Assembly (NCBI RefSeq): GCF_003351745.1
Contig: NZ_CP031222.1
Coordinates: 2,462,207-2,526,206 of the forward strand
Source: Aquirhabdus parva
Lineage (GTDB): Bacteria; Pseudomonadota; Gammaproteobacteria; Pseudomonadales; Moraxellaceae
Direction of reading: 5' to 3'
Length of the DNA: 64,000 nucleotides
In this document: piece by piece, positions 39,880-44,511 of the stretch
Position numbering within the stretch: position 1 is the first letter of the stretch
How the letters are laid out: the number at the start of each line of letters is the position of its first letter
Notes under the pieces: model-generated
Told to the model about the DNA's origin: nothing
Database searches by the model: none
Seen by the model: only the letters and a program-made list of their open reading frames with translations
Program-made: the position numbers and the translations under genes

Positions 39880-39955
39880 TGGCGGGCCAGGAGAGACTCG
39901 AACTCCCAACACCCGGTTTTGGAGACCGGTGCTCTACCAATTGAACTACTGGCCC
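39880..39955 (-). tRNA. trpT: tRNA-Trp (anticodon CCA)
   Basis: 76 nt including the encoded 3' CCA. Acceptor stem GGGCCAG / CTGGCCC, D arm AGTTCAATTGGTAGAGC, anticodon loop CTCCAAA on a CCGGT-type stem, T loop TTCGAGT, discriminator G. It lies between tuf and secE. Confidence 0.97.
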
Positions 39956-42123: not shown

Positions 42124-43641
42124 CTAAAAAACCAGTCCGTTTGCCGATAATTCAACCGCTCTGATCACTGCGCGAGCTTTAATAAGCGTTTCATTCCATT
42201 CACTAACTGGAATTGAGTCCGCAACCACCCCTGCGCCAGCCTGCACATGAACTTGTCCATCAGTGATGACCGCTGTACGAATCGCGATGGCGGTATCCAT
42301 CTCTCCATGCCATCCTAAATAGCCCACCGCCCCACCGAACACGCCACGCTTGACGGGTTCTAATTCGTCAATAATCTCCATTGCACGAATCTTCGGTGCT
42401 CCCGATAGGGTTCCCGCCGGAAACGTGGCTTTAAACACGTCTAAAGCATCCAGCTCTGGGCGCACCTTCCCTTCCACATTCGACACGATATGCATCACGT
42501 GTGAATACTTCTCGATACTCATCCGCTCGGTGACTTTGACTTGGCCAATTTGACTCACACGCCCCACATCATTACGACCTAAATCAATCAGCATCAAATG
42601 TTCAGCGATTTCCTTACCATCCGCCAAAAGATTCGCTTCAAGATCCGCTTCTTCCTCTGGGGTCTTACCGCGCGGTCTCGTCCCAGCAAGCGGACGCACT
42701 GTCACGATTCCATTTTCCAAACGCGTCAAGATTTCCGGCGAAGAGCCCACCAACTGAAAGGGTTTTGCCACACTCTTGCTATCAGGCAACGTGACACCAT
42801 CCACTAAGAACATATAAGGCGACGGATTCAGATGCCGTAGCGCGCGATACACCGATAACGCATCGCCATCAAAGTCACTGGTCATACGCTGACTCGGCAC
42901 AACCTGCATCACATCGCCAGCTTTAATATATTCCTGTATTCGCGCTACATCATGCTGGAATTTTTCATCGCCTGTATGCGATACAAAAACAGGTGCAGTA
43001 TGTGGCTTTGCCGTAAGATCTAGTGGTGCAGCCAGTAGCACCTCCAATGCCTCCAATCGCGCAATAGCGTTTTGATAGGCATCAGGCTCACTGCTGTCCG
43101 CATGAGTGATCAGTGACAAAGTATCGCGTAGGCTATCAAACACAATCACCGTATCTGAAACCATCAACCAAATATCCGGTAGATTGATCGGATCCTGTGC
43201 TGGCACATTCTTCAAGCGCGGTTCTATATAGCGCACAGAATCATAAGCAAAATAACCCACTAGACCACCGGTAAAATTCGGTAATGCTGGGGTTTCGCTC
43301 GCCGGTGGTAAATTAAAACTGGCCTGAAACTTGCGGATATAAGCAAAAGGATCCTGACATTCAGTAACCTCAAGTGCTTGATCAGGTTTTTGAATACGCA
43401 TTTCACCTTGGCGATATTGCAGGGTCGTACCACTACCTAAACCGATAATAGAATAGCGACCCCAACGCTCTCCGCCCTGTACAGACTCAAACAAGTACCG
43501 GGCAGTTTGATCGTCGCCATTGGCGCGCAAACGTGCAAAAACTGATACAGGGGTATCTGTATCAGCTAAGCGTTGGTGAAATACGGGAATATGGCGATAA
43601 CCAGCTGCAACCAGCCGTTGAAACTCGGAAAGGCTCATCAT
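42124..43641 (-). CDS. trpE: Anthranilate synthase component I
   Basis: Converts chorismate and ammonia (or glutamine with TrpG) to anthranilate, the first step of tryptophan synthesis. The 505-residue protein has the N-terminal feedback region, including LFESVQGGERWGRYSIIGLG with the regulatory ESVQ-type Ser, and the chorismate-binding domain: FQLVGSSPEILTRLENGIVTVRPLAGTRPRGKTPEEEADLEANLLADGKEIAEHLMLIDLGRNDVGRV, SNVEGKVRPELDALDVFKATFPAGTLSGAPKIRAMEIIDELEP, GVFGGAVGYLGWHGEMDTAIAIRTAV. It lies 183 bp after gph, and a candidate leader peptide with attenuator occupies that gap. Confidence 0.97.
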   Translation of the reverse strand: MMSLSEFQRLVAAGYRHIPVFHQRLADTDTPVSVFARLRANGDDQTARYLFESVQGGERWGRYSIIGLGSGTTLQYRQGEMRIQKPDQALEVTECQDPFAYIRKFQASFNLPPASETPALPNFTGGLVGYFAYDSVRYIEPRLKNVPAQDPINLPDIWLMVSDTVIVFDSLRDTLSLITHADSSEPDAYQNAIARLEALEVLLAAPLDLTAKPHTAPVFVSHTGDEKFQHDVARIQEYIKAGDVMQVVPSQRMTSDFDGDALSVYRALRHLNPSPYMFLVDGVTLPDSKSVAKPFQLVGSSPEILTRLENGIVTVRPLAGTRPRGKTPEEEADLEANLLADGKEIAEHLMLIDLGRNDVGRVSQIGQVKVTERMSIEKYSHVMHIVSNVEGKVRPELDALDVFKATFPAGTLSGAPKIRAMEIIDELEPVKRGVFGGAVGYLGWHGEMDTAIAIRTAVITDGQVHVQAGAGVVADSIPVSEWNETLIKARAVIRAVELSANGLVF

Positions 43642-43824
43642 TTTTAATTCAACTCAAATCAGGGGTTTGAAAAAATCAACGCAAGGTAGCGCTATAAGAA
43701 CTCATTAGGTATGAGCAAATGATTAGCGACGCCAGCGAAATCCGCCTGCTGAAAGAATCATGATGTCCTCTAATACAATACTGTTAGTCAATGGTGCGGT
43801 CATTTTTTGAAATCAAAACTAAAT
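43642..43824 (-). promoter_or_regulatory. Candidate trpE attenuator leader
   Basis: The gap between gph and trpE carries a 12-codon open frame (43723-43761), then a hairpin CTCAT-ACCTA-ATGAG, then a GC stem (AGCGC / GCGTT, extended to ATAGCGC / GCGTTGAT with one bulge) ending in six T. This is the order expected for ribosome-mediated attenuation of a tryptophan gene. The structure was read by eye. Confidence 0.5.
43723..43761 (-). CDS. Candidate trpE leader peptide, 12 residues
   Basis: Minus-strand ATG with AGAGGA five bases upstream, reading MILSAGGFRWRR then TAA. It contains one Trp in an RWRR context near the end, where a ribosome stalled for Trp-tRNA could affect the following hairpins. 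Trp leader peptides usually carry two or more Trp, so a single one is weak evidence. It lies 82 bp before trpE. Confidence 0.45.
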   Translation of the reverse strand: MILSAGGFRWRR

Positions 43825-44511
43825 CTATAACAATTCTGCCAATGAATCAAGCAGCAAATCAGGCTCACTGGCAGCAATGGGTTCACCATGATTATACCCA
43901 TAGCTGACCGCAATACTGCGGATCGAAGCAGCGCGCGCAGACTCCACATCATTACGCGAATCACCAATCATGAGTGCATGTTCAGGCTTTAAACCATAAT
44001 GAGATAACGCATGCAATAAAGGCGCTGGATGAGGTTTGCGATGCTCCAAACTATCACCCCCTAGAACCAAGGAAAAATATTCGAGTAGATTAAGCGCTTT
44101 GAGTAGCTTTAACGCAGGTTGATAAGGCTTATTGGTAATACAAGCAACATGGATTTTATGCTGCTGGCACCAGGTCAGAAATTCACGGACACCCGCGTAC
44201 ACCGTACTGTCCACACAAACATCTGCCTGATAATGCTTCATGAAGGAAGCCAGGAGTTCTTCATGACGTTCTGGTGCAATACCGCGATACTCACGAACAC
44301 ATTGAATGAGGCGTCCTGCCCCACGGCCAACCCACAGCCGCACCTGCACATTGGTAACAGGATCAACACCAATATCATAAAGTGCAAAGTTCACAGCACG
44401 CAAAATATCAGCGGCAGAATCAACAAGCGTTCCATCCAGATCAAAAAAGATCGCCTGAATATGGTCAAAGCTTGCTACAGATACCCCTTTTTCCACAGTG
44501 GATTGTGACAT
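43825..44511 (-). CDS. gph: Phosphoglycolate phosphatase (HAD family)
   Basis: Hydrolyses 2-phosphoglycolate formed by DNA repair, a cytoplasmic HAD phosphatase. The 228-residue product has HAD motif I AIFFDLDGTLVDSAADI (about residues 15-31), a helical cap, motif II VACITNKPY (about 129), motif III KPHPAPLLHAL and motif IV MIGDSRNDVESARAA (about 177). Gph next to trpE is a recurring arrangement in Pseudomonadales. A related HAD phosphatase cannot be excluded by motif alone. Confidence 0.9.
   Translation of the reverse strand: MSQSTVEKGVSVASFDHIQAIFFDLDGTLVDSAADILRAVNFALYDIGVDPVTNVQVRLWVGRGAGRLIQCVREYRGIAPERHEELLASFMKHYQADVCVDSTVYAGVREFLTWCQQHKIHVACITNKPYQPALKLLKALNLLEYFSLVLGGDSLEHRKPHPAPLLHALSHYGLKPEHALMIGDSRNDVESARAASIRSIAVSYGYNHGEPIAASEPDLLLDSLAELL

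Follow-up and report, generated by a model that had tools for sequence, protein, structure and literature searches.

The region upstream of trpE raises the question of whether a short open reading frame (ORF) with a single Trp codon controls the gene behind it and, if so, at which step of expression. The DNA analysed is a stretch of 64 kb, referred to as the window, from a genome consisting of one contig of 3.78 Mb, and four genomes of its genus were present in the collection. Going by gene order, we took this genus to belong to Moraxellaceae and g15, the largest of the related genera, to correspond to Acinetobacter.

Organisation of the trpE upstream region

Read along the minus strand, gph is followed by the leader ORF, a gap of 81 nt and trpE. 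The ORF at 43825..44511 (minus strand) is presumably gph, coding for a HAD phosphatase, as judged from its sequence character, and the ORF at 42124..43641 (minus strand), the putatively regulated gene, was taken to be trpE from its protein family, with relatives retrieved by search. Beyond trpE, four tRNA genes, tuf and a tRNA-Trp gene follow, the last of which (39880-39955) adjoins tuf about 2.2 kb past the end of trpE.

The leader ORF (43723..43761, minus strand) comprises 12 codons and a stop codon (ATG ATT CTT TCA GCA GGC GGA TTT CGC TGG CGT CGC TAA, 43761-43723) and encodes the peptide MILSAGGFRWRR, whose RWR ending is kept in both sister genomes with a trpE start and at many loci of the order. 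Both sister leaders read MTYPTGGLRWRR. The initial annotation, which left the strand unnamed, had described a 12-codon frame with a good ribosome binding site and a Trp within RWRR. The frame was confirmed, with a Shine–Dalgarno (SD) motif GAGG (43767..43770, minus strand) 5 bases upstream of the ATG, and so was the Trp, which is specified by one UGG at codon 10 (43732..43734, minus strand), placed between the Arg codons CGC and CGT and aligned with that of the sisters.

A promoter scan of the minus strand between 43400 and 44100 yielded no sigma-70 promoter. Rfam searching of the window at gathering score returned only tRNAs, as it did for 10 other loci, and at E values up to 10 the region 43500-44000 gave just four weak snoRNA/miRNA matches. 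The two sisters (L084 and L085) carry a hairpin and then a T run after gph and before the leader (ACGGTGCTGA..TTCAGTGCCGTTTTT and ACGGTTCTGA..TTCAGAGCCGTTTTT); one pair of this hairpin is altered on both sides between them, and the element resembles a gph terminator. By eye, no hairpin with T run was seen at this position in the window.

Conservation of the leader ORF in the order

Leaders were counted by a rule that asks for an ORF upstream of trpE with RWR or WRW and an SD match of at least 3 bases. Such an ORF was found at 67 of 90 loci of the family and at 47 of 69 further loci, compared with 1.0% of shuffled upstream regions (dinucleotide shuffles, 159 loci x 20). The family search covered 149 genomes, 124 of them with a trpE match; the 90 loci examined from these are the best 30 and 60 picked for genus spread. 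The 69 further loci (29 best others and 40 hand-picked, from 194 genomes of the order searched) include three from the window's family again, all without leader, hence 47 of 66 in other families. Short ORFs are common, and the leader RNA folds no better than chance (z -0.38, see below), as would be expected of an ORF that arose by chance and has no function; conservation against 1% in the shuffles refutes this reading in the main, and it is considered highly improbable.

By genus, the leader was present in g1, that of the window (3/3), g2 (5/7), g3 (1/2), g4 (2/2), g5 (3/3), g6 (3/3), g8 (1/1), g10 (4/4), g12 (1/1), g13 (5/5), g15 (38/39) and g16 (1/1). Under the same rule, it was absent in the family genera g9 (0/6), g11 (0/12) and g14 (0/1), where trpE may have lost this control or acquired another in its place. 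In the window's genus, the fourth genome (G003) offers no trpE start for inspection; although 99% complete, it contains only a distant trpE match with 33% identity over residues 172-496.

The single Trp codon had been raised as a caution in the initial annotation, where conservation of the Trp codon and of the stems among trpE leaders of relatives had been named as the test. Conservation answers this caution: one Trp codon is present in 3/3 leaders of the window's genus and 38/38 g15 leaders, as well as in all leaders of g3, g8, g10 and g16, and the first half of the proposed test thereby came out in favour of the leader. Among the 51 leaders from other families, 8 have one Trp codon, 26 two, 15 three and 2 more. 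A related, Trp-richer form with at least four Trp codons was observed upstream of trpE at L023, L024, L026, L027 and L052 (mostly titled Burkholderiales), with leader ends such as WRWWCW or YRWWCW.

The trpG genes of the window's genome and three genus mates (L251, L258, L267, L271) were not preceded by any ORF that combines a Trp codon with an SD match of 4 bases. The trpG set comprised 30 loci, all of them oriented except L273, and in several others trpG directly follows trpE.

Conservation of the peptide ending across many families of the order would also be compatible with a peptide acting in trans, or with a nascent chain that stalls while sensing free Trp, in the manner of peTrpL or TnaC, respectively. 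The N-terminal part of the leaders is freely variable, however, and the ORFs as called range from 6 codons up, which leaves little for a trans role, and a TnaC-like motif was not apparent. A leader peptide with a role in trans is on record in the available text of PMC7298713. Altogether, we regard action of the peptide itself as improbable. Judged by sequence comparison, the ORF is very probably a Trp-responsive leader acting in cis before trpE.

Codon choice next to Trp

In the leaders, Arg between two Trp codons was encoded by CGA in 84% of 62 cases, and Arg before Trp, but not after one, in 59% of 100 cases. By comparison, CGA accounts for 7.6% of 1796 Arg codons in trpE sequence. CGG, which makes up 11.6% of trpE Arg codons, occurred before Trp in 0 of 162 cases. 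These counts are conditioned on RW/WR and not on the choice of Arg codon, and related species are counted repeatedly. In other bacteria, CGA, which a wobble tRNA decodes, is translated slowly; a slow CGA could aid a one-codon sensor. The bias is seen in many trpE leaders (for instance L143, L189 and L202), and the window and its sisters use CGC at this position, not CGA. A downstream complement (ATCG) of a CGATGG core was tried as a reason for CGA and rejected, its enrichment being confined to g15 (18/38 versus 7.3 expected; elsewhere 10/58 versus 9.7; leaders without the CGATGG core 6/21 versus 4.9).

Terminator-like elements in the leader

Downstream of the leader stop, the window contains a small hairpin GCUCAU/AUGAGU (43700..43716, minus strand), recognised by eye in the sequence and a three-sequence alignment. 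The two sisters have a hairpin of different sequence at about the same spot and then a CUUUUUG tract, likewise seen by eye and in three sequences only. In the window, the small hairpin is followed by a weak terminator-like hairpin UAGCGC/GCGUUG of 6 pairs (43677..43694, minus strand; -6.1 kcal/mol) and the T run TTTTTT (43670..43675, minus strand). On paper, CGCUA and UAGCG can pair as an alternative to this weak hairpin.

The initial annotation had read alternative hairpins and a T run as ribosome-mediated attenuation. The T run and the pairings on paper do exist; folding of the whole window leader, as the annotation had advised, gave a structure no better than that of shuffled sequences (z -0.38; 66/200 shuffles as good), and a terminator scan of 43400-44100 returned 1 site, where shuffled sequence gave 0.8 on average. 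The hairpin/T-run part is not above chance in the window sequence. Of the attenuation proposal, the leader peptide is thus the strongly supported part, and attenuation by an intrinsic terminator, which is near chance, is left unsupported.

These elements bear on classical transcription attenuation, in which the leader ribosome would decide between an antiterminator and the weak hairpin with its T run before trpE. In its favour, a U tract accompanies a terminator-like hairpin in each of the three leaders of the window's genus (-6.1, -7.4 and -9.3 kcal/mol), and plausible terminators occur in some distant lineages, such as that of L186 (-9.2 kcal/mol, with 25% of its shuffles at or beyond the cut-off of -5). 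Of 20 shuffles made for each of the three genus leaders, however, 15%, 45% and 50%, respectively, attain the same cut-off, and over the whole set such a hairpin with U tract was found in 9 of 87 leaders with short spacing (5.2 expected) and in 10 of 41 with long spacing (7.5 expected). Neither placement nor stems are alike between the window and its sisters, as read from the alignment. Moreover, as we read the footprints, CGCUA, the arm that would compete with the hairpin, is covered whether the ribosome stands at UGG or at the stop, which gives no consistent sign of regulation. The intrinsic terminator was therefore rejected as the main device, being near chance over the set, and was retained as a rival for the window's genus, where we consider transcription attenuation unlikely.

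Predicted pairing between the leader and the trpE ribosome-binding site

Each leader, taken from 15 bases upstream of its start codon through its stop, was evaluated for pairing with the trpE ribosome-binding site (RBS; -32 to +6), with shuffled leaders as the reference. The sets used for this, for the ribosome model and for the ATCG comparison cover spacings of roughly 21-130 nt, with a short class of up to 75 nt from leader stop to trpE and a long class, to which the window (81 nt) belongs. The leader-calling rule underlying all these statistics rewards RW/WR and SD, and the start codon it assigns may be off by some codons (for example, MVFRWRV versus MNKRMVFRWRV). Six named loci from outside the searched genomes are included in the pairing and opening sets (L003, L010 and L017, short; L022, L024 and L052, long); L002, a duplicate of L086, is part of the set of 118 leaders and was removed from later ones.

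Over these 118 leaders, pairing with the trpE RBS exceeded that of shuffled leaders by 1.44 sd on average. The mean z was -1.73 (sem 0.14) for 87 short-spacing leaders and -0.59 (sem 0.22) for 30 long-spacing leaders. Controls were flat, both for the sequence upstream of the leader against the RBS (z 0.02, n=87, and 0.13) and for the leader against trpE+30 (z 0.05, n=69, and 0.16); loci without leader gave z -0.25 (n=41) and 0.05 (n=66). When the leader's own RBS was compared with dissimilar RBSs of like composition, the mean z was -1.12 for the 111 leaders with enough comparisons, and the two spacing classes gave -1.17 (short, 85 leaders) and -0.95 (long, 26 leaders); these values being similar, the gap between the spacing classes is smaller in this second control. 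As the leader-level means count related species repeatedly, values per taxon provide an alternative view: 19 of 22 short-spacing taxa were negative (Wilcoxon p 5e-5), and so were 9 of 12 at long spacing (mean -0.55, p 0.09). Statistically, over the leader set, the leader ORF is complementary to the trpE RBS.

For the three leaders of the window's genus, the mean pairing z was -1.85. The 5' arm of the helix predicted in the window begins 4 bases upstream of the leader ATG and reaches codon 7 (43742..43765, minus strand; duplex -17.9 kcal/mol), and the 3' arm from the same duplex prediction (43636..43665, minus strand) spans the weak SD (GAG) of trpE and AUGAUG. Taken alone, the window helix had a p value of 0.087, and those of the sisters 0.0375 and 0.0275 (2000 shuffled leaders each), where the two sisters are closely similar and hence not independent. 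In the printed examples, arm sequences vary by lineage and the 3' arm often reaches the trpE SD or AUG: in the g15 leader L101, UAUUUCGAUG lies opposite CAUCGAAAUA, and in many other g15 leaders AUGGUUU..CGAU lies opposite AUCGAAACCAU. A loose alignment of 38 g15 leaders nevertheless yielded no consensus structure in RNAalifold, which speaks against the helix.

This complementarity is left unexplained if the stalled ribosome merely shields the gap between leader and trpE from Rho. Such Rho-dependent attenuation would agree with a conserved leader and with intrinsic terminators occurring without clear excess; we hold it to be rather unlikely, more so than attenuation at an intrinsic terminator.

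Modelled effect of a leader ribosome on the trpE start

To represent a ribosome on the leader, the bases under it were blocked, with the first Trp codon in the A site, and the cost of opening the trpE RBS was computed. The mean opening cost was 10.3 kcal/mol in both spacing classes without a ribosome; with one at Trp, it fell to 6.3 kcal/mol for the 87 leaders with short spacing and to 9.1 kcal/mol for the 30 with long spacing. The corresponding values were 8.0 (short) and 9.7 kcal/mol (long) with the ribosome at the leader stop, and 6.0 (short) and 8.6 kcal/mol (long) with the ribosome at the leader start. For the sisters, a ribosome at Trp lowered the cost from 9.3 to 5.5 and from 10.7 to 5.9 kcal/mol; for the window, it did so just from 8.9 to 7.8 kcal/mol, with AUGAUG staying paired, and an initiating ribosome reached 6.3 kcal/mol versus 7.8 kcal/mol for the Trp-stalled one.

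A sliding footprint revealed a gain at the Trp codon of 4.3 kcal/mol in g15 (38 leaders) and of 5.5 kcal/mol in 20 other short-spacing leaders of the family. It came to only 1.5 kcal/mol in other families (26 leaders with short spacing) and to 0.9 kcal/mol among 27 leaders with long spacing, some of them from the window's family. Outside the family and at long spacing, a larger gain was obtained with the ribosome further upstream than Trp. The gain is broad: most ribosome positions on the leader as far as the Trp codon produce it, and in g15 it fades about 12 nt past Trp. Since an initiating ribosome opens the RBS equally and the gain is broad, dwell time rather than a special position would carry the signal. 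The fit of the model is better for the window's family than for other members of the order. For this species, the explanation is weakest in that the opening gain of the window is small and its helix marginal.

Proposed mechanism and comparison with known systems

The best explanation, which we favour with moderate confidence, is that trpE is controlled in cis by a leader ORF that senses Trp, with translation initiation as the most likely point of control; whether control in this species is mainly at translation we judge to be evenly balanced. With enough charged tRNA-Trp, the ribosome would complete the leader and depart, and the freed leader RNA would pair with the SD and AUG of trpE, allowing little trpE translation. 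Upon Trp shortage, the ribosome would linger at the single UGG and cover part of the 5' arm, and the trpE start would become more open.

More tentatively, we propose that in a large part of the order trpE is under a leader family outside Rfam, which ends in RWR or WRW with mostly the slow CGA for Arg before Trp, and that in the window's family ribosome delay at one Trp codon exposes the trpE RBS with no terminator involved. If true, Proteobacteria would possess a translational attenuator that responds to an amino acid, in which a slow Arg codon would have been retained because it sharpens a sensor of one codon. The textbook Trp attenuator would then gain a sister form that acts on translation start and reads one Trp codon, a simple system would be at hand for how ribosome delay at one codon becomes a signal, and an Rfam gap spanning many genera would be filled.

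The E. coli trpL-trpEDCBA attenuator has a short leader ORF with two adjacent UGG codons just before trpE. The window shares with it a short Trp-codon leader ORF just before trpE and differs by one UGG, complementarity to the trpE RBS and no conserved terminator found. In the f21 leaders, which from sequence we take to be those of Pseudomonas, two Trp codons are present near the end (LARWRWRA) with little RBS pairing (4 leaders, mean z -0.27), whereas in the window there is a single Trp codon and RBS pairing is present to some extent. An older paper on Acinetobacter calcoaceticus trpE reportedly may treat its leader.

In ermC-type translational attenuators, a leader ribosome frees a sequestered RBS, with stalling induced by a drug. 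RBS release by the leader ribosome is shared with the mechanism proposed for trpE, and the difference is between drug stalling and amino-acid supply. In the available text of PMC2965389, ermC is named as a leader controlling translation.

For the same gene as in the window, attenuation of trpE/trpGDC in Pseudomonas putida is reported by title, which also names miaA (Olekhnovich and Gussin 2001, J Bacteriol 183:3256; reference line in PMC8297930), and for P. aeruginosa trpGDC a figure legend gives premature 3' ends near a possible uORF (PMC8297930). Among the literature matches listed, none describes the trpE leader of the window in its title or abstract start, and neither RBS helix, single codon nor CGA bias was found there.

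In the available text on C. glutamicum hisD, an SD-sequestering leader without leader peptide is presented (PMC3896937). The LEU element of actinobacterial leuA, as far as the available text goes, has a leader ORF in which a run of Leu codons can base-pair with the SD preceding the biosynthetic gene (Seliverstov et al. 2005, PMC1262725). It has in common with the leader of the window an ORF for the amino acid of the pathway that is able to pair with the downstream SD, and differs by its occurrence in Actinobacteria, leucine, a pseudoknot and a run of Leu codons. The trpE leader is a variant of an already known kind of regulation.
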